This document shows positions 25,919 through 44,137 of a stretch of DNA of 64,000 nucleotides, piece by piece (position 1 is the stretch's first letter; each line of letters starts with the position of its first letter). Under the pieces are notes generated by a model. The model was not told where the DNA came from, made no database searches, and saw only the letters and a list, made by a program, of their open reading frames with translations. The position numbers were made by a program, and so were the translations under genes. The stretch comes from Synechococcus sp. GreenBA-s. Lineage in GTDB: Bacteria > Cyanobacteriota > Cyanobacteriia > PCC-6307 > Cyanobiaceae. The stretch is from positions 1 to 64,000 of the forward strand of contig NZ_JAGQBX010000007.1 in the NCBI RefSeq assembly GCF_024345855.1, in the 5' to 3' direction.

Positions 25919-26040
25919 GGTGATCGGCTGAGTTCATCGGCCCGGCCGCTGTCGCGCCGAGGGGATCAGCGGCTGGCGTGATCGAGGACCAGCGGTCGGG
26001 CCTGGGGATCTGTCTAGGGTTTTGCGGTGACAGGTCCGCG

Positions 26041-27324
26041 GTGAAAGGTCTCTCCCGATCGCGACAGATGGCGGCCGCCACCGCGGGGGTCGTCGTTGCC
26101 ATAGCCCTGGTGCGGGGTCTGTGGCCCCGCCAGGAGGCCCCGCGCCAGCGCCCGCCCGTGCCCGTGGACCTGGCCACGGCCCGGGTGGGGGCGATCAGCG
26201 TCACCTACCCGATCACCGGCGAGGTGCGGGCCGTGGCCTCGGCCCAGATCCGCCCGGAGGTGAGCGGCATCCTCGAGCGGGTCTACTTCCGCGAGGGCCA
26301 GGAGGTAAGGGCGGGCCAGCCCCTGCTCGGCCTCGATCGCGCCCCCTTCCTGGCGGCCCTGAACCAGGCCATTGCCAACCGCCGCAAGGCCGCCGCCGCC
26401 GTGCAGGTGGCCGCCGCCAAGGCCCGCAGCGCCCACACCCTGGCCCGCACGGCGCGGCTGCGGGCCGACCGCTATTCGCGGCTCGGCAGTCAGGGTGCCG
26501 TCAGCCGCGACCAGGAGGATCAGTTCCGCAGCGATGCGGACTCGCGGCAGGCCGAGGCCCTCAGCCGCGACAGCGAGGTGGTGAGTGCCCGCGCCGACCT
26601 GGCCGCCGCCCAGGCCGCCGAGGCCGCCGCCCGCCTGCGCTACGACCGCACGACCGTGCGCTCGCCGATCAGCGGCCGCACCGGCCAGCTGCGGGTCACA
26701 CCCGGGAACCTGCTGCAGGAGGGCAACGCCCAGATCCTGCTGGTGGTGAACCAGTTCCGCCCGATCGATGTGGTCTTCGCCCTGCCCCAACGGATGCTGG
26801 CCCAGGTGCGGCGGGGCCTGGCCGTGCGGCTGGAGGGGGGCGAGCAGGGCAGCGTCAGCTCCATCGACAACGCCGTGGATCCCAGCACCGGCACCACGCC
26901 GATCAAGGCCTCCTTCAGCAACACGGCTCTGCGCCTGGTGCCGGGGCAGTTCGTGAAGGGGGCGCTGCAGCTGGAGCGGCTCAACGGCGTGACGCTGATT
27001 CCCCAGGTCGCCGTGCAGAGCGGTCAGAAGGGCAGCTTCGTGTACGTGGCGGTCCCTGCCCAGGGCGCGGCGCCCGGGTCCGCTCCCGCCTCGGCCGGCG
27101 CCGGCGCCACGGCCAGGCCTGGCCGCGCGGTGGAGGCCCGCAGCCTGGAGCTCGGCCCCGCCAACGACGGCCTGGTGGTGGTGCGACGCGGCCTGGTCCC
27201 CGGTGAGCAGGTGGTGATTCGCGGCCAGTTCGCCCTCGGCCCCGGCGCCCGCATCCTCACGCGCCCCCCTGGCGGTGGCGCTCCGCAACCGCCAGGTCCG
27301 GGCGCGTCGCCACGCCAGCCATGA
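26041..27324 (+). CDS. RND efflux membrane fusion protein
   Basis: 427 residues from the GTG at 26041; an ATG nine codons later (MAAATAGVV) or a GTG at 25978 are alternatives. One N-terminal membrane anchor (AAATAGVVVAIALVRGL) is followed by the biotinyl-lipoyl half motif SAQIRPEVSGILERVYFREG, a coiled-coil hairpin (about 100-190), SPISGRTGQLRVTPG and a beta-barrel. This is the AcrA/MdtA layout. Its stop overlaps the start of the RND pump (ATGA). TAGGGT at 26015-26020 is a plausible -10. Confidence 0.92.
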   Translation: MKGLSRSRQMAAATAGVVVAIALVRGLWPRQEAPRQRPPVPVDLATARVGAISVTYPITGEVRAVASAQIRPEVSGILERVYFREGQEVRAGQPLLGLDRAPFLAALNQAIANRRKAAAAVQVAAAKARSAHTLARTARLRADRYSRLGSQGAVSRDQEDQFRSDADSRQAEALSRDSEVVSARADLAAAQAAEAAARLRYDRTTVRSPISGRTGQLRVTPGNLLQEGNAQILLVVNQFRPIDVVFALPQRMLAQVRRGLAVRLEGGEQGSVSSIDNAVDPSTGTTPIKASFSNTALRLVPGQFVKGALQLERLNGVTLIPQVAVQSGQKGSFVYVAVPAQGAAPGSAPASAGAGATARPGRAVEARSLELGPANDGLVVVRRGLVPGEQVVIRGQFALGPGARILTRPPGGGAPQPPGPGASPRQP

Positions 27325-30300
27325 AGCTCTCCGTTGCCCTGATCCGCCGGCCGGTCACCACCATCCTGCTGAGCCTGGCCCTGGTGGTGTTCGGGGTTGT
27401 CGGCTACCTGAGGTTGCCGATCAGCGACCTGCCCAGCATCGATTTCCCCACGCTGCAGGTGAGCGCCTCCCTGCCCGGCGCCAACCCCCAGACCATGGCC
27501 ACGGCGGTGGCCACACCCCTGGAGCAGCAGTTCTCGAGCATCGCCGGCCTCAGTGCGATCACCTCGAGCAGCAGCCAGGGCAGCACCCAGATCAGCCTGC
27601 AGTTCAACCTCGACCGCGACATCGACGTCGCTGCCCAGGACGTGCAGACCGCCATCAGCCAGGCCTCGCGCCTGCTGCCGCCGGACATGCCCACGGCGCC
27701 GTCGCTGCGCAAGGTGAACCCCGCCGAGCAGCCGATCTTCTACCTGGTGCTCAGCTCCGAGGTGCTCCCCCTCTCGGAGGTGAGCCGGGCCGCCGAGGTG
27801 CAGATGGCCCAGCGCCTCTCGATGCTCGACGGGGTGTCGCAGGTGCAGGTGTTCGGGGCCCAGAAGTATGCGGTGCGCATCCGCGTGGATCCCCAGGCCC
27901 TCACCGCCAAGGGGATCGGCCTCGACGAGGTGGCGGGAGCTATCCGCTCCGGCAACTCCAACCTGCCCACCGGCAACCTCTACGGCCGCCAGCGCACCTA
28001 CAGCGTGGAGGACAACACCCGCCTGGAGGATGCCGGCGCCTACCGGCAGCTGGTGGTGGCCTTCCGCAACGGCTCGCCGGTGCGCCTGGGCGATGTGGCC
28101 GAGGTGATCGACAGCGTGGCCAACGAGCGGCTGGCCAGCTGGTACAACGGCACGCGCTCGATCGTGCTGGCGGTGCAGCGGCAGCCCGGCAGCAACACGG
28201 TGGCCATCGCCGATGCGATCCGGGCGCTGCTGCCCGAGCTGGAGCAGCAGATTCCCGGCGCCATCCAGGTCGACGTTCTGTTCGACCGCTCCGAATCGAT
28301 CCGCGAGGCCATCCACGACGTCCAGATCAATCTGGTGGTGACCGTGGCCCTGGTGGTGGCGGTGGTGGCCCTGTTCCTGGGCACCGGCATCGCCACGGCC
28401 CTGCCGTCGCTGGCGGTGGTGGTGTCGCTGGTGGCCACCTTCGGGGCCATGGCGGTGCTGGGCTTCTCGCTCGACAACATCTCGCTGATGGCGCTCACCC
28501 TGAGCGTGGGCTTCGTGGTCGACGACGCGATCGTGATGGTGGAGGCGATCGTGTGGCGTCAGGAGCAGGGCGAAAGCCGTTGGCAGGCCGCCATCAACGG
28601 CGCCCGCGAGATCGGGCCCACGATCGTGTCGATGACCCTGGCCCTGGTGGCGGTGTTCATCCCCGTGCTGTTCATGGGCGGGCTGCTGGGCCGCCTGTTC
28701 CGGGAATTCGCCGTGACCATGAACCTGGCGGTGACCTTCTCGGCCCTCGTGGCCCTCAGCCTCACGCCGATGATGGCGGCCCGGCTGCTGCCAGCTCCTG
28801 GCTCCGAGCGGCGCGACAATCCCCTGCTGCTGCGCTTCGACGCGCTCTTCGCCCGCATCACCCGCCTCTACGACCGCACGCTGCTGGCGGCCCTGCGGCG
28901 TCCCCGGCCGGTGCAGCTCATCTCGGTGGCGCTGCTGCTGCTCTCCGTGGTGCTGGTGCCCCTGGTGCCCAAGGGCTTCATCCCCGACCAGGACAGCGGC
29001 CAGCTCACGGTGATCACCCAGGCCGCCGAGGGCATTTCCTTCGAGGAGATGTCAGGCCTGCATCGACGCCTCAGCGCCAGGCTCCAGGCCCATCCCGCCA
29101 TCGCCGGGGTGAACAGCACGATCGGTTCCGGAGGGCCGAATGCCTCCGCCAACACCGGACGGATGTTCGTGAAGCTCAAGCCCCGCTCCGAGCGCGGCAT
29201 CGGCGCGGAGGAGCTCAGCACCCAGCTGCGGCGCACGGTGAACGGCATCCCGGGCCTGCGGGCCTTTGTGCGGGTCCCGGCCGCCGTGAACATCGGTGTG
29301 GGCCAGACCCGGGCCAAGTACCAGTACACGATCCAGGCCATCGACCTGGAGGCGCTGCTGGAGCAGGCCCCGGTCTTTGAGCAGCGGCTGCGGGCCCTGC
29401 CCGAGCTCACGGATGTGAGCAGCGATCTGCTGCCCAACAATCCGGAACTCCAGCTGCGCATCGACCGTGACCGGGCCGCGGCCCTCAGCGTTGACGCCGC
29501 TGCCCTGCAGGGTGCCCTGCGCAATGCCTATGGCGAGAACCAGGTCTCCACGATCTACAAGCCCGATGGCCAATACCCCGTGATCGCGGGTGTGAAGCGC
29601 GGGGCCCAGAGCGAACCGGCCGATCTTGATCGCCTCTCGATCCGCAACGGGGAAGGCAAGCTGATCCCGCTGGCCACCATCGCCTCCCTCGAGCAGGGCA
29701 GCGGTGCCGCCAGCATCAACCACACGTCGCAGTTGCCCTCGGTCACCTTTTCCTTCAACCTGCGCCCGGGGGTATCGCTGGATGCGGCCACCGCCCGGAT
29801 CCGCACTCTGGCCCGCGAAGCCCTGCCTCCCGGCACCACCGGCTCCTTCCAGGGCAGCGCCCGGGTGTTCGAGGAATCGCTGGCCGGCATGGGCTGGCTG
29901 ATCCTGGCGGCGGTGCTCGTGATCTACGTGGTACTCGGCATCCTCTACGAAGATGCGATTCACCCGCTCACGATCCTCACGAGCCTGCCTTCAGCCGCCG
30001 TGGGAGGTCTGCTGGCCCTGCTGCTGTTCGGCTCGGAGCTGAACATCTACAGCATCATTGGCCTGGTGCTGCTGATCGGCACTGTGAAGAAGAATGGCAT
30101 CATGATGGTGGATGCAGCCATCGCCAATCGCCGCGACGGACTGGAGGTGGTGGAGGCGATTCACCGCGCGTCGCTGGTGCGCTTCCGCCCAATCATGATG
30201 ACCACCGTGGCGGCGATCGTGGGCACGATCCCGATCGCCCTGGGCTGGGGCGCGGGTGCCGAGTCCCGTCGCCCGCTGGGTTTGGTGGTGCTGGGCGGCA

Positions 30301-30443
30301 TGGTGCTCTCCCAGCTCGTGACCCTCTACATCACCCCGGTGTTCTATGTGCAGGCCGAGCGGATCGCCAGCCGTCTGGGGCTGCGGGGGGCGTCGCTCCA
30401 GGGTGCTGCCGAGCCGGCTGAACACCCCACCTCCGCCGGTTAA
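27321..30443 (+). CDS. RND-family efflux pump (AcrB/MdtB-like)
   Basis: 1040 residues, the usual length for HAE1-type RND pumps. Twelve membrane helices are expected: one near the N-terminus (IRRPVTTILLSLALVVFG), five after about 340, and the second half after about 530. SVGFVVDDAIVMVEAI in TM4 carries the paired aspartates needed for proton transfer, and the second-half lysine lies in GTVKKNGIMMVD. It exports hydrophobic compounds with the upstream adaptor. An outer-membrane TolC protein is not encoded nearby. Its TAA stop lies in a TTAA shared with the convergent gene. Confidence 0.94.
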   Translation: MKLSVALIRRPVTTILLSLALVVFGVVGYLRLPISDLPSIDFPTLQVSASLPGANPQTMATAVATPLEQQFSSIAGLSAITSSSSQGSTQISLQFNLDRDIDVAAQDVQTAISQASRLLPPDMPTAPSLRKVNPAEQPIFYLVLSSEVLPLSEVSRAAEVQMAQRLSMLDGVSQVQVFGAQKYAVRIRVDPQALTAKGIGLDEVAGAIRSGNSNLPTGNLYGRQRTYSVEDNTRLEDAGAYRQLVVAFRNGSPVRLGDVAEVIDSVANERLASWYNGTRSIVLAVQRQPGSNTVAIADAIRALLPELEQQIPGAIQVDVLFDRSESIREAIHDVQINLVVTVALVVAVVALFLGTGIATALPSLAVVVSLVATFGAMAVLGFSLDNISLMALTLSVGFVVDDAIVMVEAIVWRQEQGESRWQAAINGAREIGPTIVSMTLALVAVFIPVLFMGGLLGRLFREFAVTMNLAVTFSALVALSLTPMMAARLLPAPGSERRDNPLLLRFDALFARITRLYDRTLLAALRRPRPVQLISVALLLLSVVLVPLVPKGFIPDQDSGQLTVITQAAEGISFEEMSGLHRRLSARLQAHPAIAGVNSTIGSGGPNASANTGRMFVKLKPRSERGIGAEELSTQLRRTVNGIPGLRAFVRVPAAVNIGVGQTRAKYQYTIQAIDLEALLEQAPVFEQRLRALPELTDVSSDLLPNNPELQLRIDRDRAAALSVDAAALQGALRNAYGENQVSTIYKPDGQYPVIAGVKRGAQSEPADLDRLSIRNGEGKLIPLATIASLEQGSGAASINHTSQLPSVTFSFNLRPGVSLDAATARIRTLAREALPPGTTGSFQGSARVFEESLAGMGWLILAAVLVIYVVLGILYEDAIHPLTILTSLPSAAVGGLLALLLFGSELNIYSIIGLVLLIGTVKKNGIMMVDAAIANRRDGLEVVEAIHRASLVRFRPIMMTTVAAIVGTIPIALGWGAGAESRRPLGLVVLGGMVLSQLVTLYITPVFYVQAERIASRLGLRGASLQGAAEPAEHPTSAG

Positions 30444-31240
30444 GGCGCGGCGGCGGTGTCCTCGCGGGGGCTGGATTTGAGGGGGGTGCGGATCAGCCAC
30501 AGGGCCTCACCATCGCGCCAGAGCAGCAGCAGCGCGTCGCGCTCCACCACGGTGAGGCCCTGGGGCTGGGTGCGGCCCAGCTCGGCAGCGGTTCCAGGCC
30601 CAAGGCGCCGTACTTCTGTGCCTGCGCCAAGGTCACCGAAGGGGGAACTGGCGGGCTGGGCACGGCGCCAGAGGGTCTGCAGCCGCTGGCCGAGGGGCGC
30701 ATCGGGCCAGAGCAGGCGCCGGCGCACCGCCTGGGCGGGGGCGCTGAAGCTGTCGAAGGCACCTTCCCTGGCCCCGGGCATCCAGCCGCGGGCCAGCTCC
30801 AGCACCTCGGCGGGCTGGGCGGGCAGGTCCGCCTCCCCATCCGGGGGCTGGCTGCTGCTGCCGGCCGCTCTGGTGGCGGACCTGGCCGTCGGGTTGGCGG
30901 CGGGCTTCGCCTTCCCGGCCCTGGGTTGGCCGGCCTCCGGCAGCAGATCGGGCGGCGGCGGCGGCAGGGCATCGAGGGCCGCCAGCGAGGCGACGCTCAG
31001 GGGCTGCAGTCCCCCCGCCCCCGGCCGTGCCTGGGCCTCCAGGCGGGCCTGGGCGGCCTGCAGCCGGCGCCCCAGGCGCAGTAGCTGGGGCGTGTCATCC
31101 ACCGGTCGGGACGCGGCCTGTCCGGAGCGGGCCACGCCGCCCGTGGGCCGGCTCGCCGGGGTGAGGGCGGCGATCACCAGCAGCAGCGCGTTGACGCCAA
31201 GGGCCAGCAGGAAGGCCCGGCCCAGGGGATGGGCCCACAT
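30440..31240 (-). CDS. Membrane-anchored protein in TonB position of an ExbB/ExbD-like operon
   Basis: 266 residues from the ATG at 31240 (MWAHPLGRAFLLALGVN). One N-terminal membrane anchor (FLLALGVNALLLVIAAL) is followed by a long Ala/Pro-rich periplasmic linker (about 30-140, including PPPPPDLLPEAGQP) and a C-terminal region with RRRLLWPDAPLG and DALLLLWRDGEALWLI. The layout (anchor, Pro-rich arm, small C-terminal part) is TonB-like, but I see no clear TonB C-terminal domain. It lies 31 bases downstream of the second ExbD-like gene. Function inferred only from layout and context. Confidence 0.5.
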   Translation of the reverse strand: MWAHPLGRAFLLALGVNALLLVIAALTPASRPTGGVARSGQAASRPVDDTPQLLRLGRRLQAAQARLEAQARPGAGGLQPLSVASLAALDALPPPPPDLLPEAGQPRAGKAKPAANPTARSATRAAGSSSQPPDGEADLPAQPAEVLELARGWMPGAREGAFDSFSAPAQAVRRRLLWPDAPLGQRLQTLWRRAQPASSPFGDLGAGTEVRRLGPGTAAELGRTQPQGLTVVERDALLLLWRDGEALWLIRTPLKSSPREDTAAAP

Positions 31241-31271
31241 CCGCTGCCCGTGGCGTGGCCACTGGCTGGGA

Positions 31272-31616
31272 TCAACCCTGGGGAAGCTGGAGTTCAAGGG
31301 AGAGGCCTCCGTCGTCGAGCTGGTGGAGCAGGCCCAGCACCTCACCCCAGGGGGTGGCTGGATCGGGCAGCAGGCGCAGGTGCAGGTCGGGCCGGCGCTG
31401 GCGCGCCTGGCGCAGCAGCGCCACCAGCTCCGGGCGCGACACGGGCTGGTTCCATAGGCGCAGCACCCCGCCGGGGGCCACCTGCAGGGTCAGGAGGCCC
31501 TGGGCCATGGGGCGCTGGGCCAGCCGCTGGGGCAGCAGCAGCAGGGCCAGGCCGAAGCCGGCCAGGCCCGTGCCCAGCAGGCCGTAGCCCAGGGAGGGCA
31601 GCCACAAGCGCGTCAT
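31272..31616 (-). CDS. ExbD/TolR-like protein 2, lacking the membrane aspartate
   Basis: 114 residues. One membrane helix (LGYGLLGTGLAGFGLALLLL) is followed by a periplasmic ExbD-like domain: LTLQVAPGGVLRLWNQPVSR, then ALLRQARQRRPDLHLRLLPD and a C-terminal LLHQLDDGGLSLELQL. ExbD/TolR/MotB proteins normally have an aspartate inside this helix for proton conduction; none is present here. The start codon overlaps the upstream ExbD-like stop (ATGA). Confidence 0.6.
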   Translation of the reverse strand: MTRLWLPSLGYGLLGTGLAGFGLALLLLPQRLAQRPMAQGLLTLQVAPGGVLRLWNQPVSRPELVALLRQARQRRPDLHLRLLPDPATPWGEVLGLLHQLDDGGLSLELQLPQG

Positions 31617-32005
31617 CCGCCCCCCGCCAGTTGCAGCTGCACCGGGCTGCCGCTCTGGCGCTGCAGCCAGGTGAGGCTGCGGCTCACCTCCCCACTGCCG
31701 AGGCCCGGTGAGGGCAGAAAGTGAAGTCGCACGCTGGGGCCCTGGGGGCCGGCCTGGACCAGGCGCAGCCGCTGGCGGCGCAGGCGTACCCCCAGAACGG
31801 CCTCGCTCAGGGGGCTGCCGTTGACGCTCCAGGCACCGATGGCACTGCGCACGATCAGCAGGGTCTCGGCGCCGGCCGTGGGCTGGCTTGCCTGGGCCGC
31901 GGGCTCCGGGGATCCCACCAGCAGTGCCGGCAGGCTCGCCGTGGCAGTGAGCACCACCAGGGTGGTGGCGGTGGCGGGCATCACCAGGGCCAGCATCCCG
32001 GTCAC
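31613..32005 (-). CDS. ExbD/TolR-like protein 1, lacking the membrane aspartate
   Basis: 130 residues using the GTG at 32005, which overlaps the ExbB-like stop by GTGA; the ATG three codons later is an alternative. One membrane helix (MPATATTLVVLTATASLPAL) is followed by an ExbD-like periplasmic domain: LLIVRSAIGAWSVNGSPLSE and VRLHFLPSPGLGSGEVSRSL, ending SPVQLQLAGG. As in its paralogue, no aspartate lies in the membrane helix. Product of a tandem duplication within the operon. Confidence 0.6.
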   Translation of the reverse strand: MTGMLALVMPATATTLVVLTATASLPALLVGSPEPAAQASQPTAGAETLLIVRSAIGAWSVNGSPLSEAVLGVRLRRQRLRLVQAGPQGPSVRLHFLPSPGLGSGEVSRSLTWLQRQSGSPVQLQLAGGG

Positions 32006-32496
32006 GGGCCGACCTCGCGCTGGCGCAGCTCCAGGTCGAGCAGACCGCGCTGCCAGCGCCGCAGCCCCTGGTTGAGCAGCAGCAGCGCCAGGGCCGCCAG
32101 GGCCAGCTCCAGACCCACAACCGTGCTGGCCAGGACATCCGCATAGCCCGCCAGGGGGTTGGCGGGGGGTAGCAGCAACTGGGGCCCCAGCTCCCTCAGC
32201 ACGCCCATCAGGCCAAGCACCGTGCCCACCAGCCCCAGCAGCGGTGCCAGCAGCACGGCGGCCTGGAGCACCGGCTCGCCGAAGGCCATCGCCCGCTGGC
32301 GCCGCTCCAGCAGCAGGCGGGCCGCCGCCGGATTCAGGGTGTCCGCCAGCTCGCGCCGCAGGCTGTCGCGCTGGCGGGCCGGCGGCCGCCACCAGCGCCA
32401 CCAGAACGAGATCCGCTCAAAGGCAATGGTGAACACCGCCAGCGAGAGCAGAGCCAGGGGAAGGGCCACAGCCCCGCAGGCCTTCAACAGGGACAT
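32002..32496 (-). CDS. ExbB/TolQ/MotA-family proton-channel-like protein
   Basis: 164 residues with three membrane segments (about 8-28, 78-102 and 122-142). The family core is visible: AVLLAPLLGLVGTVLGLMGV in the second segment and YADVLASTVVGLELALAALA in the third. It is short compared with E. coli ExbB (about 244) and has a basic cytoplasmic loop rich in WRWWRPPARQRD. First gene of a four-gene operon with two ExbD-like proteins and a TonB-position protein. In known systems this complex turns proton flow into mechanical force; the partner and energy source here are unclear. Confidence 0.75.
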   Translation of the reverse strand: MSLLKACGAVALPLALLSLAVFTIAFERISFWWRWWRPPARQRDSLRRELADTLNPAAARLLLERRQRAMAFGEPVLQAAVLLAPLLGLVGTVLGLMGVLRELGPQLLLPPANPLAGYADVLASTVVGLELALAALALLLLNQGLRRWQRGLLDLELRQREVGP

Positions 32497-34085: not shown

Positions 34086-37000
34086 ATGCCTGGCCCCAGC
34101 ACCAGTGCCAATCCTTCCCTGAGCTCCCTCAACCTGACTCCCACTGGCACGAGTGGCGAGCAGTTCCAGAGCGAGATCTCTGCCACCGTGACAATTGGCC
34201 GCAAGCTGTTTGTTCTTTCCAGCGGTGGTGGCACCACCTTGCAGGTGACCAACGCCACCAATCCCTCGGCACCGGCCCTTCTGGAGCGTCTGAGCTACGG
34301 CGACGGCTACGTCTCCCAGGCGGTGGCTACCTACGGCAACCTGGTGGCGGTCGCCCTGTCTCCGGGCGATTACGGCACCAGCTCCGGCAAGGGCCTGGTG
34401 CGTTTCTACCGCCTCGGTAAGGAGGGCAAGCTCACCCAGATCGCCGATGTGGAAGTGGGTTACCTCCCCGACGGTCTGGCCTTCAACGCGCAGGGCACCA
34501 AGCTGGTGATCGCCAATGAGGGTGAACCGATTGCCAACTATGCAATCGATCGGCCTGGCAGCATCGGCATCATCGATATCAAGCCCCGCGATGGTAAGGA
34601 GCGCTTCAGCTACACCGACCTCGACTTTTCTGGGGTGACACTGCCGCAGGAGGGTATCCGCATCTCCGGCCCTGCTGGCACCACCCAGATCACTGACATC
34701 GAGCCGGAGTACGTCACGGTGCTTGGCAAATATGCCTACGTGACCCTGCAGGAAAATAACGGCGTGGCCAAGGTGAAGCTGGCCACCAATACGATCGAAA
34801 AAATCTTTGCCTTAGGCACGGTCGACTACAGCAACCAGCTGGTGGACCTGAGTGATAAGGATGGCGGCTTCAAGCCGCTTCTGGGCCAGGCCTTCGAAGG
34901 GCTGCGCATGGCTGATGGCATTGCGGCTTACAGCATCAAGGGCAAGGACTACTTCATCACTGCTAACGAGGGTGATGGTCGCGACTATGGAGGATACAAG
35001 GATGAGTCCGGCAATGGGCCAGATCCCAACGTCCGTACCCTGACGGACGATGCCTCTGTCGGTACTGGTCTCGCTACCACGTTCGGCAGTCGCAGCATCA
35101 GCATCTTCGATGCCAACACTGGAGCCCTGCTTTGGGACAGCGGCAACACCCTGCAGACGATTGCCTTCGCGGCGGGCGTGTATGCCGATGGCCGTAGCGA
35201 CAGCAAGGGGGTGGAGCCCGAAGGTGTCCTTGTGGTCCGGATCAATGGGCGCAGCTACGCGATCGTGAGTCTTGAGCGCACCACCAGCTCGATGCTGGCT
35301 GTGTTCGACGTGACTGATCCCACCGCCGGTCAGTTCGTGACCAGCCAGGTGATCGCCGGCAGCATTTCTCCCGAAGGCCTGACAGTGGTGGATGCCAAGC
35401 AGAGTCCCACGGGTCGGGCACAGTTGGTGGTGTCCAATGAAGCGTCCAACACCCTCAATCTGTTTGACCTGGAGACTCTGATAGCTGCGCCTCCTGTTGC
35501 GGGTGCGGGCACCTTCGACGGCACCATGCTGAAGGACGTGGATGGTGGCTCCGCCCTCAAAATCAGCAGCCTGATCACCAACGGCGAATTCACCAATGGT
35601 CTGAATCCGGGCGACAGCGTCTATGCGCCAATTGGCATTTTTGATGGCATGGGTGCCTACGCCAACGGCGATGGCACCTACACCTTGCTCGTGAACAACG
35701 AGTTGGCGGCCGACCGGGGCTATGGCTATCAGCTGGAAGGGGTGCAAGGTGTGTTTACTGGTGCCCGTATCGCTTCCTACAAGGTTGATGTCGACATCGA
35801 TAATAAGGCCAGCAACGGCTACCAGAGTCGCGTCATCTCTGGCGGCCTCGCCTACGACCGGATCTTTGATCGCTCCGGCTCCCAGATCACCGATGTGGAC
35901 CAGCTCAGCGCTATCGCCACCGAGGATCTCGATGGGTTCAAGCGCTTCTGCTCCGCCAACCTGGTGGAAGCCTTGAGCTTCGGTGGTGGTCGTGGCTTCA
36001 GCGACCGCATTTACCTAGTGGGCGAGGAGGAATTCGCTGGGGATGGGGGTTCCTTCTTTGCGCTCGATGTCAATGATCGCTCACTGCATCAGGTGGCCGG
36101 ATTCGGCAAGGGCACCTGGGAGTCGGCCACGGCTATCGACACTGGCAACCCGAACACGGTGGCTGTGTTGCTGTTCGATGATGCCAACGCCCCCCTCTAC
36201 CTCTGGGTTGGCACCAAGAGCACGGATCCCAATGCCAGCTTCCTGGAGCGCAATGGTCTGGCCGAGAGCAGCGGTTCTCTCTATACCTTCGTGGCCGATC
36301 TGGCGGATACGGGTCTGCCTGGCCTGAACTCTCAGGATTTGCAGGGCCTCGGTCTGAATGCGCCCGTGGGCGGTCAGTGGGTCAATCTCGAGACCCTCAA
36401 TCCCAATTACGCTGCCCTTGGTGCCGGCGACCTGCGCACCCTCGCGGTCAATGCCGGAGCGATTCAGCTCAGTCGGATTGAAGATGGTGAGGTCAATCCT
36501 CTCAACGGAAAACAAGCGGCGTTTGTGTCAACGGGCACCACAGCCTTTGACAAGGGGGATCTCTATGGCAACGTCTACACCCTGGATTTCACCAATGCAT
36601 TTGACGCCTCTGGTCAGCTCAAGGCCGGTGTGAACCTCACTGACCTCCGGGTGATCTACGACGGCGATCGCCTTGTCGATCCCACCACAGGCCTGCGCAA
36701 CCCCGATAATCTCACCTGGAGCCCCGACGGGTTCATCTACCTGCAGGAGGACCGGGCCAATGGCGGTGGCTCCAACATCGCCAACGGCAACTTCGGTGCC
36801 GCGGAGGCATCCATTTGGAAGCTGGACCCCAACGACTTTGATCTGGTCACTGGCCAGGCCCTGAGCGAGCGTTGGGCCCAGATCGATCGCACGGCGGTGC
36901 CCACCGCCTACGGCCAGAGCCAGCCCTCGTTTGCGGGCCTGGATACCAACGGCGTCGGCAACTGGGAGTCCTCCGGCATCATTGATGTTTCGGCTCTCTA

Positions 37001-37139
37001 TGGTGCCACTGCTGGCACCTACTTCCTCGCCAACATCCAGGCCCACAGCCTTGGTGGTGGCAACATCGGCGGTGCCAACTATCTGGTGGAAGGCGGCCAG
37101 ATCGATCTGATCCAGCAGCTCAGCACCTTCGGGATCTGA
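34086..37139 (+). CDS. Large propeller-PhoX fusion: choice-of-anchor I domain plus PhoX-like phosphatase domain
   Basis: 1017 residues. Residues about 15-460 form a beta-propeller-like region of the 'choice-of-anchor I' type (GYLPDGLAFNAQGTKLVIAN, ITANEGDGRDYGGYKDE, NGRSYAIVSLERTTSSMLAV). Residues about 490-1017 resemble PhoX/DUF839 alkaline phosphatases (YTLLVNNELAADRGYG, DRIYLVGEEEFAGDGGSFFA, RNPDNLTWSPDGFIYLQEDR). PhoX enzymes are Ca/Fe phosphatases, usually Tat-exported. Here no signal peptide is visible, so export could be by another route. Codons end in A/T more often than in neighbours. A Pho-box-like element lies upstream and a terminator follows. Catalytic activity is inferred. Confidence 0.8.
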   Translation: MPGPSTSANPSLSSLNLTPTGTSGEQFQSEISATVTIGRKLFVLSSGGGTTLQVTNATNPSAPALLERLSYGDGYVSQAVATYGNLVAVALSPGDYGTSSGKGLVRFYRLGKEGKLTQIADVEVGYLPDGLAFNAQGTKLVIANEGEPIANYAIDRPGSIGIIDIKPRDGKERFSYTDLDFSGVTLPQEGIRISGPAGTTQITDIEPEYVTVLGKYAYVTLQENNGVAKVKLATNTIEKIFALGTVDYSNQLVDLSDKDGGFKPLLGQAFEGLRMADGIAAYSIKGKDYFITANEGDGRDYGGYKDESGNGPDPNVRTLTDDASVGTGLATTFGSRSISIFDANTGALLWDSGNTLQTIAFAAGVYADGRSDSKGVEPEGVLVVRINGRSYAIVSLERTTSSMLAVFDVTDPTAGQFVTSQVIAGSISPEGLTVVDAKQSPTGRAQLVVSNEASNTLNLFDLETLIAAPPVAGAGTFDGTMLKDVDGGSALKISSLITNGEFTNGLNPGDSVYAPIGIFDGMGAYANGDGTYTLLVNNELAADRGYGYQLEGVQGVFTGARIASYKVDVDIDNKASNGYQSRVISGGLAYDRIFDRSGSQITDVDQLSAIATEDLDGFKRFCSANLVEALSFGGGRGFSDRIYLVGEEEFAGDGGSFFALDVNDRSLHQVAGFGKGTWESATAIDTGNPNTVAVLLFDDANAPLYLWVGTKSTDPNASFLERNGLAESSGSLYTFVADLADTGLPGLNSQDLQGLGLNAPVGGQWVNLETLNPNYAALGAGDLRTLAVNAGAIQLSRIEDGEVNPLNGKQAAFVSTGTTAFDKGDLYGNVYTLDFTNAFDASGQLKAGVNLTDLRVIYDGDRLVDPTTGLRNPDNLTWSPDGFIYLQEDRANGGGSNIANGNFGAAEASIWKLDPNDFDLVTGQALSERWAQIDRTAVPTAYGQSQPSFAGLDTNGVGNWESSGIIDVSALYGATAGTYFLANIQAHSLGGGNIGGANYLVEGGQIDLIQQLSTFGI

Positions 37140-37164
37140 TCCACCCGCTTTACGACTGCACCTG

Positions 37165-37188
37165 GGGCCCCTGCGGGGGCTCTTTTTT
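37165..37188 (+). terminator. Rho-independent terminator after the PhoX-fusion gene
   Basis: GGGCCCC (37165-37171), loop TGCG, GGGGCTC (37176-37182; one G-T pair), then TTTTTT. It starts 26 bases after the stop codon. Confidence 0.85.
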
Positions 37189-37265
37189 GTTGGTCATGGA
37201 CCGGCTGAAATCCTGCCGATCGGCCCCACCGCACCTAGACCGGACACAGCGATGGGGGCAGCGCT

Positions 37266-38861
37266 CTGGACCAAGGCAGCTCCCTGCTCAATGCCCTCGG
37301 CGGGCTCGGCCTGTTCCTGCTGGGCCTGGCCCTGCTCAGTGAGGGCCTGCGCAGCCTGGCGGGCCAGCAGCTGCGCCGGGTGCTGCTCCGCTTCACCCGT
37401 TCTCCGCTGTCCGGTGCCATCACCGGCGCCTGTGCCACGGCGCTGCTGCAGTCGTCCACGGCGGTGACGGTGGCCACGGTGGGCTTTGTGGCCGCCGGGC
37501 TGATCAGTTTCCCCTCCTCCCTGGGGCTGGTGATGGGGGCGAATGTGGGCAGCACCAGCCTCGGCTGGCTGGTGGCCCTGGTGGGGATCCGGCTACAGCT
37601 CAGCCAGCTGATGCTGCCGCTGCTGCTGCTGGGGGCGGGGCTGAAGCTGCTCGGCCGGGGTCGGGCCGCCCGCCTGGGCCTCACCCTTGCCGGCTTTGCC
37701 CTGCTGTTTCTCGGCCTGGCCACCCTGCAGGGGGCGATGGCCGGCCGGGGCCTGCTGCTCGACCCCGGCCACTTCGACGCCGCCACGGCCGCGGGGCGGC
37801 TGCAGCTGCTGGCCCTGGGGTTCGTCACCACCCTGGTCACCCATTCCTCCGGGGCGGGGGTGGCCGCCAGCCTCACGGCCCTGGCGGCCGGTGGCCTCAA
37901 CCTCGGCCAGGCCTGCGCCCTGGTGATCGGCATGGACCTCGGCTCCAGCATCACGGCCCAGATCGCCGCCATCGGCTCGGGTCTGAGCGCCCGCCGCACC
38001 GCCACGGCCCACCTGTTGTTCAACGTTGTGACGGCAGCCCTGGCCTTCGTGCTGCTTCCGCCCTACCTGCGGCTGCTCGCGGCGCCGTCGCTGCCGTCCA
38101 GTCAGCTGGAGCCCGCCTTTGCCCTCACGCTGTTCCAGAGCGGTTTCAATCTGCTGGGCCTGGCGTTGCTGTTGCCCCTCACGGGGCCGTTCGCCGGCCT
38201 GATCCGCCGGCTGGTGCGTACCTCCCAGGAGCGGGAGGTCGACGATCTCGACGCCATTCCGCCGCCGCAACCGGACCAGGCCCTCGAACCGGCCGCCGAT
38301 GCCCTGCGCCAGACCTTCGGCGATCTGGTGGTGCACTTGGGCTGCTTGCTCGGGGCAGAGTCCGGCCCGGCGCCACCCCAGCCCACGGGCCTCAACGGAC
38401 TGCAGGGGGAGCTCGATCGGATTGAGCTCTATCTCGATCAGATCCATGTGGAGCAGCTGGAGGCCCCCGAAGGCCGGCGCCTGCTGCACCTGCTGCACGG
38501 CCTGGACCATCTGCAACGGCTGCATGAGCGGCTGGAGGAGGAGCCCGATCGGGCCCGCACCGTGCGCACGGATCCAGCCCTGGCGGGGCTGCGTCAGGAG
38601 CTCCTGGGCCTGGTGCGTGCGCTGCCCGACATCCTGGCGATGGACCACTGGACGGCGGCGAGCCAGGGCACTGCTGCGGCGGCCCGGCTGATCGAGGTCA
38701 GCGTGCAGCCGCTGCGCCATCGGGTGATGGCGGCCATCGCCACGGGCGAACTGGAGCTGGAGCAGGGAACCCACAGCCTTGAAGCCATCCGCTGGCTGGA
38801 GCGGGTCAGCCGCCACCTGCAGCAGATCTGCCGCCACATGGCCAGGGCCACGGGCCGTTGA
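37266..38861 (+). CDS. Na/Pi cotransporter-family protein with PhoU-like tail; 5' end disturbed
   Basis: About 531 residues. The membrane part (1-310) has two inverted QSST-type repeats: ALLQSSTAVTVATVGFVAAG near 60 and VTHSSGAGVAASLTALAAGG near 200, as in NptA/PNaS transporters. The C-terminal part (about 330-520) is a helical PhoU-like domain. No ATG, GTG or TTG opens the conserved frame between a TAG and residue 39. The only nearby ATG (37252, ATGGGGG) is out of frame, and one extra G would join it to the conserved frame. The start given is a CTG and is provisional. It lies just downstream of the PhoX-fusion terminator. Confidence 0.75.
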   Translation: MDQGSSLLNALGGLGLFLLGLALLSEGLRSLAGQQLRRVLLRFTRSPLSGAITGACATALLQSSTAVTVATVGFVAAGLISFPSSLGLVMGANVGSTSLGWLVALVGIRLQLSQLMLPLLLLGAGLKLLGRGRAARLGLTLAGFALLFLGLATLQGAMAGRGLLLDPGHFDAATAAGRLQLLALGFVTTLVTHSSGAGVAASLTALAAGGLNLGQACALVIGMDLGSSITAQIAAIGSGLSARRTATAHLLFNVVTAALAFVLLPPYLRLLAAPSLPSSQLEPAFALTLFQSGFNLLGLALLLPLTGPFAGLIRRLVRTSQEREVDDLDAIPPPQPDQALEPAADALRQTFGDLVVHLGCLLGAESGPAPPQPTGLNGLQGELDRIELYLDQIHVEQLEAPEGRRLLHLLHGLDHLQRLHERLEEEPDRARTVRTDPALAGLRQELLGLVRALPDILAMDHWTAASQGTAAAARLIEVSVQPLRHRVMAAIATGELELEQGTHSLEAIRWLERVSRHLQQICRHMARATGR

Positions 38862-38872
38862 GACCCGTTTGC

Positions 38873-39166
38873 TCAGATTTCGAAGTCCAGCAGCTGCGAG
38901 CGGCTGGCATCCAGCTGCTTCCAGAGGCTGCGGATCTGCTCATAGGCAGCATCCTGCTCGAGCTTGCCACCGGCCTGCAGCGCCACGATCAGGCCGATGC
39001 GATCGGCGAACTGTTCGAGATTCTGGTGAAAGGCCAGCTTCTGGGGGGACCAGTCGGCGCCGCGATAGCGGCTGAAGCCCTCCAGGGGTGCGTGGACTCC
39101 GGCTAATGGCGTGGCATCAGGGGGTGGGGGATTCTCACCACCCTTGGGGTGCAGCGGGTGGCTCAT
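38873..39166 (-). CDS. DUF7219-like small protein A
   Basis: 97 residues. A proline-rich start is followed by FSRYRGADWSPQKLAFHQNL, EQFADRIGLIVALQAGGKLE and AAYEQIRSLWKQLDASRSQL. This is a helical cyanobacterial small-protein family of unknown function that I associate with DUF7219. It is a clear paralogue of 40502-40771; the two flank corA. Convergent with the Na/Pi gene and divergent from corA. Confidence 0.7.
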   Translation of the reverse strand: MSHPLHPKGGENPPPPDATPLAGVHAPLEGFSRYRGADWSPQKLAFHQNLEQFADRIGLIVALQAGGKLEQDAAYEQIRSLWKQLDASRSQLLDFEI

Positions 39167-39327
39167 CGGCCCTGAACTTTCGTGTCAGCTTAGCGATGCC
39201 ACAGAGAGCCTGAAGCTCCCTGCGAACACTCACCTCCCAGCCCAGCAATCGCGGCCCTTGCGGTTGTGCAGGGTGACGATCCGGAGGCCGGCAGTAGGAT
39301 GAAACTGCCGGTTGATTCAGGAGTTCG

Positions 39328-40455
39328 TTGATCCCCGATCTACGGCAGCTGAGGCCCACTCCAGGTTCCCTTGAATCGCGGCGGCTGGAAGAGCGACCCG
39401 GCACGATGCCCACCGCGCTCTACGTGGCCGGGGGGCGGGCCAAGACTGAATTCTGCGTGGTTGATCTGGATCCGGCTGGTGTGCAGTTGATTCCCCTGGC
39501 CCGGGTCTCGGCCCTGCGGGAGCACTGCCAGTCGGGCCGGCCGATGTGGCTGCGCATCACGGGCCTGGCACAACCCCATGCCATCCAGGAGGCCCTCACC
39601 ATACTGGGGGTTCCCGATCTGTTTCATCCCCTGCTGCTCGATGTGCCCCAGGCCACCCGGGTGGACTCCTTGGGTGATGTCATCACTGTGGTCATGCATC
39701 GCCTGCGCCTCTCCCGGGATCCGACGGTGCTGGTGAGCGATCAGGTGGGCATGGTGCTGCTGCCGCACGTGTTGATCTCGGTGGAGGAGTGTCCCTCGGA
39801 GCATCCCTTCGCTCCGCTGATCCAGTGGCTGCAGACCAAGACGCCCCCACCCGGCGCCGAGGATCTCGATGATCTGCTGCATTTCATGGTGGACAGCCTG
39901 CTGGATCCCCTGCTGCCCATGCTGGAGCAGATGGCGAATCGGCTCGATGATCTGGAGGAGGCCGCCCTGCGTGACCCCAGCCCCAAGCTGCTCAACCGAG
40001 CCTTTCAGATCCGCAGCAACCTGCGGGAGATCCGACGCCAGCTCTGGCCGCTGCGCAACCAACTGATGGTGTTCCTGCGCCAGAACCAACCGATCATGGG
40101 TCCGGAGGGCCTGAAGGGATTCAAGGACATGATCCAGACGGTGGCCCATCTCTTCGACACCTGCGAAATGTTGCGGCACCAGTGCGATTCGGTGACGGAA
40201 GCCCACGTGGCCAGCACCGGCAATCGCATGAATCAGATCATGAAGACGCTCACGATCGTCTCTACCATCTTTGCACCCCTAACCTTCCTGGCTGGCATCT
40301 ATGGCATGAACTTTGAGTTCATGCCCGAACTGAAGTGGAGCTACGGCTATCCCGCCTGTCTGGCGGTGATGGCCCTGATCGCCAGCGTTCAGGCCACCTG
40401 GCTGTGGCGGCGGGGCTGGTTCGTGGATTGGACCGGCAGTCGCCCGAAGCGCTGA
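39328..40455 (+). CDS. corA: CorA-type magnesium/cobalt transporter
   Basis: 375 residues with a TTG start preceded by AGGAG at four bases, the best-supported start; an inner ATG at 39406 would remove a plausible N-terminus (TPGSLESRR). A cytoplasmic alpha/beta domain is followed by a long helix and two C-terminal membrane segments. The selectivity signature YGMNFEFMPEL (near 329-339) is the GMN motif of CorA channels. Located in the phosphate cluster between two DUF7219-like genes. Confidence 0.93.
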   Translation: MIPDLRQLRPTPGSLESRRLEERPGTMPTALYVAGGRAKTEFCVVDLDPAGVQLIPLARVSALREHCQSGRPMWLRITGLAQPHAIQEALTILGVPDLFHPLLLDVPQATRVDSLGDVITVVMHRLRLSRDPTVLVSDQVGMVLLPHVLISVEECPSEHPFAPLIQWLQTKTPPPGAEDLDDLLHFMVDSLLDPLLPMLEQMANRLDDLEEAALRDPSPKLLNRAFQIRSNLREIRRQLWPLRNQLMVFLRQNQPIMGPEGLKGFKDMIQTVAHLFDTCEMLRHQCDSVTEAHVASTGNRMNQIMKTLTIVSTIFAPLTFLAGIYGMNFEFMPELKWSYGYPACLAVMALIASVQATWLWRRGWFVDWTGSRPKR

Positions 40456-40501
40456 ACGCCGTGTCTTGGTCAGAGCTGCGCCGCCCGGATCGGCAGGAGA
40501 T

Positions 40502-40771
40502 CTATTTCAGCAGCTGTTTGCGGCTGCTCTTGAGTTCTGCGAGCAGGTCTTTGATCTGCCTGTAGGCATCCTCCTGGCTCATCTTGCCATTGCCCTGAAG
40601 GCCCACAATCAGGCCCACGCGCTCGGCAAACTGCTCAAGATTCTGATGGAAGGCCAGCCGGTTGGGGCTCCACTGGCTGCCGTGGTACGAGCTGAAGGAT
40701 TCCATCGGCGAATGGACCCCTTCAGCGGAACCTAGCGGTTCATCCCCGTGGGTCGCTGGGCTGCTGCTCAT
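40502..40771 (-). CDS. DUF7219-like small protein B
   Basis: 89 residues. FSSYHGSQWSPNRLAFHQNL, EQFAERVGLIVGLQGNGKMS and DAYRQIKDLLAELKSSRKQL match the gene at 38873 nearly segment for segment, so the two are paralogues around corA. It ends 47 bases after corA's stop on the opposite strand and lies 18 bases downstream... upstream of no other gene on its strand except pstB, whose stop is at 40790; here the order on the minus strand is pstB then this gene, 18 bases apart, so it may be read through from pst. Confidence 0.7.
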   Translation of the reverse strand: MSSSPATHGDEPLGSAEGVHSPMESFSSYHGSQWSPNRLAFHQNLEQFAERVGLIVGLQGNGKMSQEDAYRQIKDLLAELKSSRKQLLK

Positions 40772-40789
40772 GGCGGCGGCTCCTGGGCT

Positions 40790-41614
40790 TCAGCCGAAGC
40801 GCCCAGAGACATAGTCCTGGGTGGCCTGCTGGCTGGGTGCATTGAAGATCTGCTCCGTGGGAGCGAATTCCTCCAGGCAACCCACCTTGCCGTCGATATC
40901 GGCCTTGGCCTGCACGTTAAAGAAGCCGGTCATGTCGCTGACACGCACCGCCTGCTGCATGTTGTGGGTGACGATCACGATGGTGTAGCTCTTCTTGAGC
41001 TCGTGGATCATTTCCTCGATCTTGAGGGTGCTGATCGGATCGAGGGCCGAGCAGGGTTCATCCATCAGGATCACTTCCGGTTCGATGGCCACGGTGCGGG
41101 CGATGCAGAGGCGCTGCTGCTGACCGCCGCTGAGGGCGCAGCCACTCTGTTTGAGTTTGTCCTTGGTTTCGTCCCAGATGGCGGCCTTGCGCAGGGAGCG
41201 CTCCACCAGTTCATCCATGTCGCCCTTGTAGCCATTGATGCGGGCACCGAAGGCGATGTTCTCGTAGATGCTCTTGGGGAAGGGGTTGGGCTTCTGGAAC
41301 ACCATGCCGATGCGGCGGCGCACCTCCACTGCATCCACGTCACGCGCGTAGAGGTCCTGGCCATGGAAGAGCACCCGGCCCTTGAGGGTGCATCCTTCGA
41401 TCAGGTCGTTCATGCGGTTGAGGGCACGCAGCACGGTGCTCTTGCCGCAGCCGGAGGGTCCGATGAAGGCCGTCACCTGGCCCTTGGGAATGTCCATGAA
41501 GACATTGCGCACGGCCTCGTTGGTGCCGTAGCTGATGCCCACATTCTCCAGCGACAGGCAGATGTCCGACTGGCTGCTGGAGGAGGCGCTGGTGGTGGGA
41601 GAGGAGGAGGTCAT
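40790..41614 (-). CDS. pstB: Phosphate ABC transporter ATP-binding protein
   Basis: 274 residues. Energises high-affinity phosphate uptake. Walker [20 protein letters not shown] (near 54-72), signature [16 protein letters not shown], Walker [17 protein letters not shown] and H-loop [24 protein letters not shown] after Walker A is typical of PstB. Last core gene of pstC-pstA-pstB, 14 bases after pstA. Confidence 0.97.
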
Positions 41615-41628
41615 GGCGAGTGCGGGTG

Positions 41629-42564
41629 TCAGGCGCGGGCGAGTTGGCTGAGCCAGCGGGCCAGGAGATTGGCGGCCAGGATCATCAGCACGAGCACAAA
41701 CGAAGCGGCCCAGGCCAGGGAGATCTGGGCCTGGTAGGGCATGATCGCGAAGTTGTAGATCAGCACCGACATCGTGGCGATGGGGTTGAAGACCCCCTCG
41801 GGCCAGAAGGGTGAGAACAGGGCCGTGAAGATCAGCGGAGCCGTTTCGCCGGCGGCGCGGGCAATGCCGAGCACGATGCCGGTCGCGATGGGGGAGAAGG
41901 CGGCCGGCAGGGTGATGTGGGTGATGGTCACCATCTTGCTGGCACCCACCCCGAGGGCCCCCAGGCGGAGCTCCTGGGGCACGAGCTTGAGCCCCTCGTC
42001 GGTGGTCTTGATGACGGTGGGAATCATCAGCACGGCCAGGGCGATGCCGCCGGCCATGGCGCTGTAGCTCTGGCCGAAGAAGATGCGGGTGCTGACGATC
42101 AGGCCGTAGACGAAGACGCCGCAGATGATCGAGGGCACACCGGCCAGCACGTTGGTGCCGAAGCGTACGAAGCTGGCGAAGGAGCCGCCGCTGGAGTATT
42201 CGGCCAGGTAGATGCCACCGCCGACCCCCACCGGTATCGCGATCAGGGCGGCGATGGCGGTGACGAGCAGGGTGCCAACGATTGCGTTGCCGATGCCGCC
42301 CCCCTCAAGCCCAGGCGCGGGGGGAAGCTGGGTGAGCAGCGAGAAGCTGATCAGCGAGCCACCCTTGATCAGCACGTAGGCCAGCACCAGCACCAGGGGC
42401 AGCACGGCGATGGTGGTCGCCAGGCCGGCCAGCCCCGTGAGCACGGCATTCCAGCGGTTGCGGGAGAGCTGGGGGCGGAAGGTGAGTGAGCCGCGCTGGA
42501 ACCCGCCTGCACTGGCGGCGGGGATGCGGGATCCGGGTGCCTGAGGAGAGAGAGAGGTGTGCAT
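41629..42564 (-). CDS. pstA: Phosphate ABC transporter permease
   Basis: 311 residues with six membrane segments. The permease EAA-like loop lies in [20 protein letters not shown], and [20 protein letters not shown] is the characteristic PstA stretch. It forms the membrane channel with PstC. It starts 10 bases after the pstC stop. Confidence 0.96.
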
Positions 42565-42574
42565 CGGAGCCGGA

Positions 42575-43573
42575 TCAGGTGTATTTCAGGCTGAGGCGCC
42601 GCACCACCCACTGGGCCAGCACATTGACCAGCAGGGTGAGCAGCATCAGCACCAGGGCCGCATACATCAGGGCCGACACCTGGTTGCCATCCGCTTCACC
42701 GAACTGGTTGGCGAGCATCGAGGAGATGGTGTTACCCGGTGCCAGGAGGCTCCAGCTGAAGTTGTTGGAGTTGCCGATGATCATGGTCACGGCCATGGTT
42801 TCGCCCATGGCGCGGCCCAGGGCGAGCATCACGCCGCCGGCGATGCCGGAGACGGCGGCCGGCAGGATCACCTGCAGGATGGCGCCCCAGCGGGTGGTGC
42901 CGATGCCGTAGGCGGCCTGACGCAGTTCGGGCGGCACCTGTAGCAGGGAATCCCGGGCGATGGCCGTGATGATCGGCAGGATCATCACCACAAGGATCAG
43001 GATGGCGGGTGCCATGCCGGGACCCTGGGGATCGGTGGAGAAGACCGGCAACCAGCCCAGCCTGGTGTAGAGGAAGCTCAGGAAGGGCCGCAGGAAGGGC
43101 TCCATCACGAAGATGGCCCACAGGCCGAGCACCACTGAGGGGATGGCCGCCAGCAGCTCCACCATCAGCGCGAGGATGTCGCGCAGCTTGGTGGGAATGA
43201 TGTTTTCGGTGAGGAAGATCGCGGTGCCCACGCCGAGGGGCACGGCGATCACCAGGGACAGCGCCGACGTGACAATCGTGCCGTAGATGGCGGTGAGGGC
43301 GCCGTACTGATCGCCCACCGGATCCCAGTTGGAGGTGGTGAGGAAGGCCAGGCCGTAGGCGCTGATGGCCTGGCGGGAGCCGCCCATCACGGTCAGCAGG
43401 ATGCCGAGCAGCACCAGGCCCACCAGAGAGGCCAGGGCCACGGTCAACCAGCGGAAGCCGCGATCCGCCAGCTTGTCGCTGACCGGCCGGCGGCGCAGGG
43501 TGAAGAGATCAGGGCCTGAATCCAAGCGCATCGGCACGATGGCGAACGGCTGTGAACAGCTTGACTTCACCAA
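42575..43573 (-). CDS. pstC: Phosphate ABC transporter permease
   Basis: 332 residues with the TTG at 43573; the ATG at 43531 (MRLDSGPDLF) is an equally plausible start, 14 codons shorter. Six membrane segments; LLQVPPELRQAAYGIGTTRW is the EAA-like cytoplasmic loop and GGVMLALGRAMGETMAVTMI the PstC signature. First gene of pstCAB, transcribed toward lower coordinates from a promoter region with three 11-bp Pho-box-like repeats. Confidence 0.96.
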   Translation of the reverse strand: MVKSSCSQPFAIVPMRLDSGPDLFTLRRRPVSDKLADRGFRWLTVALASLVGLVLLGILLTVMGGSRQAISAYGLAFLTTSNWDPVGDQYGALTAIYGTIVTSALSLVIAVPLGVGTAIFLTENIIPTKLRDILALMVELLAAIPSVVLGLWAIFVMEPFLRPFLSFLYTRLGWLPVFSTDPQGPGMAPAILILVVMILPIITAIARDSLLQVPPELRQAAYGIGTTRWGAILQVILPAAVSGIAGGVMLALGRAMGETMAVTMIIGNSNNFSWSLLAPGNTISSMLANQFGEADGNQVSALMYAALVLMLLTLLVNVLAQWVVRRLSLKYT

Positions 43574-43597
43574 TCTCCCACGCAGAAGTTCTCTTGG

Positions 43598-43628
43598 GTT
43601 TAAGGGCCGATTAACGACCGATCAACGT
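43598..43628 (-). promoter_or_regulatory. Pho-box-like triple repeat upstream of pstCAB
   Basis: TTAA at 43600-43603, TTAA at 43611-43614 and TCAA at 43622-43625 recur with an exact 11-base period. Read on the minus strand the units are CGTTGATC, CGTTAATC and CCTTAAAC. Three repeats spaced 11 bases are the known plan of SphR/PhoB operators in cyanobacteria. The block ends about 25 bases from the longer pstC start and about 67 from the shorter, which favours the shorter. Confidence 0.7.
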
Positions 43629-43686
43629 CTGGGCAACAGCCGGGGGCTGTTCGGTCAAGGGGGCCCGGGTCCGGGGCGGCCTCGGC

Positions 43687-44067
43687 TCAGGCGCCTCCGC
43701 CCTTGACCTGCTCCAGCCGCTCCTCCAGGCCGGCGATCAGGGCCAGGGCGAACATCGGTGTCTCCTGAACGGCAAACAGGAACGTCTCCCGGTCCAGTTC
43801 CAGGAGGCGGCAGGGCTCCAGCGCCACGGCCGTGGCCTGGCGTCGGTGCCCGCCCGTCACCAGGGCGGCGGCTCCGAAGACGTGGCCTGCCGTGATCCGT
43901 TCTGCGGCGGAGCCCCTGGCCTCGCGCAGTTCGATGACCCCCTCCAGTAGCCCATAGAGCCGTTCCCCCGGATCGCCCTCGCGAAACAGCGTTGCGCCGG
44001 CCTGAAGGTCGCGGACAGAGCTGGCGTCGGTGAAGGCCTGCACGGTTCGAAGGGCATCGAGCGACAT
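43687..44067 (-). CDS. Stand-alone cyclic-nucleotide-binding-domain protein
   Basis: 126 residues, a single CNB beta-roll: LQAGATLFREGDPGERLYGL, GVIELREA, HVFGAAALVTGGHRRQATAV and a C-terminal helix FLFAVQETPMFALALIAGLE. CRP/FNR regulators add a helix-turn-helix after this domain; here it ends without one, so it is not a DNA-binding regulator by itself. It lies between pstC (same strand) and pstS (divergent). In marine Synechococcus a CRP-like regulator (PtrA) takes part in phosphate control, but that protein has a DNA-binding domain, so equivalence is doubtful. Confidence 0.8.
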   Translation of the reverse strand: MSLDALRTVQAFTDASSVRDLQAGATLFREGDPGERLYGLLEGVIELREARGSAAERITAGHVFGAAALVTGGHRRQATAVALEPCRLLELDRETFLFAVQETPMFALALIAGLEERLEQVKGGGA

Positions 44068-44116
44068 GGTCCACCGGGCGGGTCAGGGGCAGTCTGCGCG
44101 ATTGACGCTTCCAGAG

Positions 44117-44137
44117 GATTAAGAACCCCTTAAAGGT
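44117..44137 (+). promoter_or_regulatory. Pho-box-like repeat pair 1 between CNB gene and pstS
   Basis: Two TTAA cores at 44119-44122 and 44130-44133, exactly 11 bases apart (GATTAAGA and CCTTAAAG). They are 50 bases from the CNB gene start and 111 from pstS, so they may serve either gene. Confidence 0.55.

Follow-up and report, generated by a model that had tools for sequence, protein, structure and literature searches.

The window analysed here, a stretch of 64,000 nucleotides from Synechococcus sp. GreenBA-s, carries on its minus strand (32496-30440) a translationally coupled run of four genes encoding an ExbB-like protein, two ExbD-like proteins (ExbD1 and ExbD2) and a proline-rich single-span protein, here called the anchor. 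An Asp in the membrane helix, as found in ExbD, TolR and MotB, is regarded as the defining element of this family of motors, and neither ExbD-like helix of the window has an acidic residue. We find that this state is shared by a whole clade of Cyanobiaceae operons. The evolutionary part of our account taken alone, comprising the homology of the chains, the conserved loss of the Asp, its confinement to a single clade and the selection on the genes, is held with high confidence. The full explanation that we favour, which we regard as evenly balanced between right and wrong, is that of a TonB-type inner-membrane complex that gave up its proton relay and may now work as a scaffold or tether independently of the proton-motive force. 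The initial annotation had described the four-gene layout with its GTGA and ATGA overlaps, and coordinates, strand and overlaps were all correct, as was its remark on the acid-free helices, where the aligned Asp position is occupied by Ala13 in ExbD1 and Gly15 in ExbD2.

Because an acid-free helix says little if the chains are not ExbDs in the first place, their identity was tested. The ExbB-like protein, which is 93% identical to the ExbB of V. limneticus (the host being a Vulcanococcus-like picocyanobacterium), is the only protein of the operon above a family cut-off and the sole MotA/ExbB match in the window genome, and its family profile matches ExbB (7ajq, 5.6e-12) and TolQ (8odt, 1.7e-10) in the PDB. 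For the ExbD-like chains the family models gave little: PF02472 had no match in the window genome, ExbD1 had no convincing match in Pfam or NCBIfam and none to the ExbD family, and ExbD2 had a weak Pfam ExbD match below the cut-off (E=0.033). Profiles built exclusively from Asp-less ExbD1 or ExbD2 sequences were compared by HHalign with 49 canonical ExbDs, resulting in E-values of 3.4e-7 and 2.9e-7 and probabilities of 93.0% and 93.2%, respectively. Against its own counterpart in Asp-bearing operons of the same gene order each chain scored 6.6e-15 (ExbD1) and 1.5e-16 (ExbD2), while the counterpart of the other chain scored far poorer (4e-5 and 2e-5). The ExbD1 family profile also matches ExbD in the PDB (7ajq, 8.8e-5). 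In the AlphaFold2 model of ExbD1 the transmembrane region is poorly modelled and the periplasmic domain is confident (block means 87-95, residues 51-120), and the seven best PDB matches of the model are all ExbD or TolR, including ExbD 8p9r (3.1e-4) and TolR 5by4. The canonical Asp aligns to Ala13 of ExbD1 in two independent alignments, made with MAFFT and HHalign. ExbD1 and ExbD2 are ExbD homologues, with the ExbD/TolR periplasmic fold shown for ExbD1; a fold unrelated to ExbB/ExbD, which could have undone the initial annotation, was not seen in the ExbD1 model.

For the distribution of the operon we sampled 201 Cyanobiaceae genomes, of which 61 contained PF01618 matches, and read the operons behind these matches. 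Thirteen genomes carry canonical ExbB/ExbD together with TonB_C and TonB-dependent receptors (class A). Five genomes from the genera g24, g32 and g44 carry the four-gene order of the window with Asp-bearing ExbD helices (LIPLIDVLLVVL and WLPLADVLLVLI), a Glu in the third transmembrane helix of ExbB and a His in the anchor helix (class B, below the Asp-bearing operons). The Asp-less type of the window (class C) was found in 35 of the 201 genomes, distributed over 10 GTDB genera, across which the gene order and the 4-base overlaps have for the most part persisted, and also in two loci from metagenome-assembled genomes, L006 and L007. Among 173 other cyanobacteria sampled there were no strong orthologues, only weak ExbD matches of which the best was 6.7e-9.

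The Asp column was counted in 28 aligned Asp-less loci, covering nine numbered genera and two metagenome-assembled genomes. In ExbD1 it contains Gly 13 times, Ala 11 times and Ser and Val twice each (A/G/S in 26/28), and in ExbD2 it contains Ala 14 times, Gly 8 times and Ser 6 times (28/28), while both columns are Asp in 5/5 Asp-bearing operons. No core transmembrane position is acidic in either ExbD of the Asp-less operons; in some relatives the ExbD1 helix ends in Asp or Glu at its periplasmic edge, but that of the window does not. Small residues occupy positions -7, -3, 0, +4 and +7 of the Asp-less ExbD2 helix relative to the former Asp site, a face that could reflect tight helix packing that replaced the proton site. 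In a maximum likelihood tree of ExbB rooted on canonical ExbBs the Asp-less operons all fall together in a single clade (100/100, recovered in 99% of bootstrap trees), and the Asp-bearing operons are at its base. The Asp is ancestral, being present in these operons and in those canonical first ExbDs that were examined, and since all Asp-less operons fall in one ExbB clade it was therefore probably lost once. The simplest account is one loss, affecting both chains, in the ancestor of the clade before its genera diversified. A multi-species alignment, the check suggested by the initial annotation, thus finds the missing Asp conserved within one clade of 10 GTDB genera. Orthologues carrying the Asp, which were to reveal a local loss, do exist. 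Placed at the base of the tree, they preserve the ancestral state and do not turn the missing Asp into a local loss. Local loss or sequencing error is ruled out as an explanation, the Asp-less state being common to all 28 aligned loci.

Selection was estimated as the ratio of nonsynonymous to synonymous substitution rates (dN/dS) by the Nei-Gojobori method in 14 close pairs, giving 0.03-0.23 for ExbB, mostly 0.11-0.57 for ExbD1, 0.03-0.51 for ExbD2 and mostly 0.20-0.44 for the anchor. Judged from these ratios the genes of the operon are mostly under purifying selection and not in simple decay.

Three pore residues of the ExbB-like ring, Thr92, Asp120 and Thr125, are those that we take to be equivalent to T148, E176 and T181 of E. 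coli ExbB. The two threonines are kept in the Asp-less operons (Table 1), and the Glu176 position is occupied by Q in 17, D in 10, M in 2 and E, R, L or T in one each of the 33 loci. Across these operons no acidic residue is conserved in a transmembrane core or pore helix of any chain. The initial annotation had suggested a distinct motor-like or signalling complex, and of this the distinct ExbB-ExbD-ExbD-anchor unit with its conserved lack of Asp stands, while the absence of any conserved pore acid, whichever chain is considered, leaves a carboxylate proton motor unsupported. The operon is in our opinion a variant of the ExbB/ExbD family and no new kind of machine. Tentatively, and with slightly less than even confidence, we suggest a 5:2 ExbB/ExbD complex, conserved over a long time, whose axle is a heterodimer and whose work requires no carboxylate to carry protons. 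Two points weigh against our favoured explanation of a complex without a proton relay: the ring threonines are conserved, as expected if ion passage still mattered, and Asp120 and Glu130 of the window could act in the same way as Glu49 of GldL. The GldL-GldM complex of Bacteroidota is a 5:2 complex in which the essential protonatable acid, the highly conserved Glu49, is reported to be located in the ring subunit and not in the axle (PMC8986121). With this precedent, the complex could still be an ion-driven 5:2 motor whose protonatable residue has shifted to the ExbB-like ring, and such a shift was considered for the window because its subclade has Asp at the Glu176 position and the window itself also has Glu130 in the third transmembrane helix. 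The conserved ring threonines would fit such a motor, and so would the acidic residue (D or E) that 11/33 Asp-less operons have at the Glu176 position. However, Q, M, T, R or L is found there in the remaining 22/33, and no other helix acid is conserved. We therefore consider a ring-driven motor unlikely; a GldL-like shift may apply to the window alone, as it is not conserved across the Asp-less operons.

The anchor has a layout like that of a TonB-type transducer, with a transmembrane helix, a conserved DDTPxLLRxSR box, an LPPPPP proline run and a C-terminal domain of the pattern W..R..LLLW.G..LW. It had no convincing match in Pfam or NCBIfam and none to TonB_C, and a model of its C-terminal domain had no match in the PDB. 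Since this model is only moderately confident the PDB result is weak evidence, and a TonB-like fold of the domain is rejected with the same reservation. The claim that the fourth protein lacks a clear TonB C-terminal domain agrees with these results, and the parallel to a TonB-type transducer is by position only. The transmembrane helix of the window anchor, LGRAFLLALGVNALLLVIAA, has no His and so does not contain an SxHxLxS-type motif; the His is present in all Asp-bearing operons and in several of the Asp-less ones. Neither PF07715 (Plug) nor PF03544 (TonB_C) had a match in the window genome (G000). Plug, indicative of TonB-dependent receptors, and TonB_C are absent from all genomes with Asp-bearing operons and from 34/35 genomes with Asp-less operons, the 35th (G030) also having a second, canonical TonB system, and both are present in 13/13 genomes with canonical ExbB/ExbD/TonB. 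With no Plug or TonB_C, an orphan TonB energizer for unseen receptors is ruled out. Visual inspection of the listed neighbours showed no TolB or Pal, although no search aimed at them was made.

The scaffold or tether that we favour starts from what the sequences show: the Asp disappeared from both ExbD helices in the common ancestor of the clade, a small residue took its place in both chains, and the acidic pore residue of ExbB became free to vary. Five ExbB chains would still enclose a heterodimer of ExbD1 and ExbD2, to which the anchor would be attached laterally, and the former Asp sites would sit in small-residue helix-packing faces such that the axle is held and not driven. The proline-rich arm and the C-terminal domain of the anchor would extend into the periplasm, and the complex would join the inner membrane, the peptidoglycan and an outer partner, presumably independently of the proton-motive force. 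A heterodimer is plausible, because ExbD1 and ExbD2 belong to separate groups of orthologues and their genes occur side by side, and the most likely role of the complex would be that of an envelope scaffold or tether, or of a sensor.

Compared with the Asp-bearing operons, the Asp-less ones have the same gene order, each ExbD best matches its own counterpart, and TonB-dependent receptors and TonB_C are lacking in both; they differ in that the former have Asp in both ExbDs, a Glu in the third transmembrane helix of ExbB and an anchor whose helix contains His. With ExbB-ExbD-TonB of the E. coli type (found also, as exbB-exbD-exbD-tonB, in g9 and g49) the window type shares the ExbB family, the ExbD periplasmic fold and the order of ExbB, ExbD, ExbD and a proline-rich single-span protein, but it has no Asp in the ExbDs, no TonB_C and no TonB-dependent receptors in its genome. 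The AglR-AglS-AglV system of Myxococcus consists of one TolQ-like and two TolR-like chains, and the TolR-like chains carry the Asp. We regard the likeness as a resemblance only. Asp-less ExbD systems did not turn up in a search of the open-access literature, with subscription papers outside its reach, nor was a published description of the Asp-bearing four-gene operon of Cyanobiaceae found in that literature. The clade would be a case in which nature has parted the architecture from the coupling to protons, with the Asp lost in both axle chains, the operon selected and the ring threonines kept, and the Asp-bearing sister operons would serve as the other half of a matched before/after pair for the roles of the Asp and the ring threonines. 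It also indicates that picocyanobacteria, an ecologically important group, have an envelope complex that has not been described, and if the carboxylate-free 5:2 complex suggested above is real, this architecture serves a purpose in the envelope of cyanobacteria that is independent of the proton-motive force.

Table 1 Genes and key codons of the ExbB-ExbD-ExbD-anchor operon in the window.
Feature	Position	Strand	Remarks
ExbB-like ring subunit	32002..32496	-	164 amino acids; Pfam MotA_ExbB 8e-11
ExbD1-like protein	31613..32005	-	130 amino acids; GTG start overlaps ExbB stop, GTGA overlap
ExbD2-like protein	31272..31616	-	114 amino acids; ATG start overlaps ExbD1 stop, ATGA overlap
Fourth, Pro-rich single-span TonB-like protein (anchor)	30440..31345	-	285-301 amino acids; start uncertain, GTG 31345 or TTG 31297, either one inside ExbD2; directly downstream of ExbD2 in relatives
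ExbD1 Ala13 codon	31967..31969	-	site of proton-carrying Asp (aligned column)
ExbD2 Gly15 codon	31572..31574	-	site of proton-carrying Asp (aligned column)
ExbB-like Thr92, pore-ring Thr	32221..32223	-	Thr 31/33, Ser 2/33 in Asp-less operons
ExbB-like Asp120, acidic pore residue position	32137..32139	-	Glu in 5/5 Asp-bearing operons
ExbB-like Thr125, pore-ring Thr	32122..32124	-	alignment column invariant

On one side of the window operon lie convergent genes for an RND-type pump and a membrane fusion protein (25978-30443), the end of the pump gene overlapping the end of the anchor gene by 4 bases (30440-30443). On the other side, beyond a CHAD gene, there are a PhoX-like phosphatase that carries a fused choice-of-anchor I domain, a Na/Pi symporter, a CorA-like gene, pstBA and a PstS-family gene, the phosphate genes spanning 34086-45293. 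In G044 the Asp-bearing operon is found at a devC-devA-glycosyltransferase-rpsB locus. The window has this locus at 50706-54859, with rpsB, a family 2 glycosyltransferase gene and a devC-like gene, but without that operon. No neighbour is common to all Asp-less loci, and in 19/33 of them the operon is within ~6 kb of at least one of ptrA, response regulator, phoB-like and phoR-like genes, where the PtrA calls are above their curated cut-off and the PhoB and PhoR calls are best matches below cut-off. Examples of ptrA with PhoB-like and PhoR-like genes near the operons of relatives are L003:8027-11249 and L046:2659-3636.

This neighbourhood, in the 19 loci as well as in the window with its phosphate genes, would suit a role in sensing or signalling, perhaps tied to phosphate status: the state of the envelope would be sensed in the periplasm by domains of the ExbDs or of the anchor and passed on by an ExbB ring that does not turn. 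We find this rather improbable, since the linkage may be synteny inherited within one clade, is not seen in other genera and does not include the window genome's own ptrA, which is on another contig. In addition, Pho box scores upstream of the operon were at shuffle level, while the controls upstream of PstS, the phosphatase and pstC scored higher, and Pho regulation via an upstream Pho box was rejected on this basis. Because it comes mostly from one clade and there is no Pho-box-like site upstream, we treat the phosphate linkage as a lead only.

The operon is patchy, being present in 2/11 searched members of the window's genus, and the copy of G106 (L071) has an apparent frame shift inside the ExbB-like gene, so loss of the operon does happen. 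Together with dN/dS values near 0.9 in some very close anchor and ExbD1 pairs, this could indicate a decaying relic heading for loss, in which the missing Asp reflects relaxed constraint. The purifying selection in most pairs, the gene order and 4-base overlaps largely kept in 10 genera and the maintenance of A/G/S at the Asp site speak against such decay, to which we assign a small chance. That the chains are unrelated small membrane proteins beside an ExbB-like gene, as the lack of convincing Pfam or NCBIfam matches for ExbD1 and the anchor might suggest, is scarcely credible and is ruled out by the HHalign comparisons (including that of ExbD2 with its Asp-bearing counterpart), the PDB profile and the ExbD1 fold, which all point to ExbD or TolR for ExbD1.

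Several Cyanobiaceae (L049, L081-L085 and L092) also encode a second, longer MotA/ExbB-family protein of ~275 amino acids with WVLPMLGFLGTVLG, distinct from that of the operon. Finally, in the canonical exbB-exbD-exbD-tonB operons of g9 and g49 (L009-L017) the Asp is replaced by Asn in the second ExbD (LPLINMVFLLL, 9/9) and kept in the first, making these operons a natural one-Asp pair.

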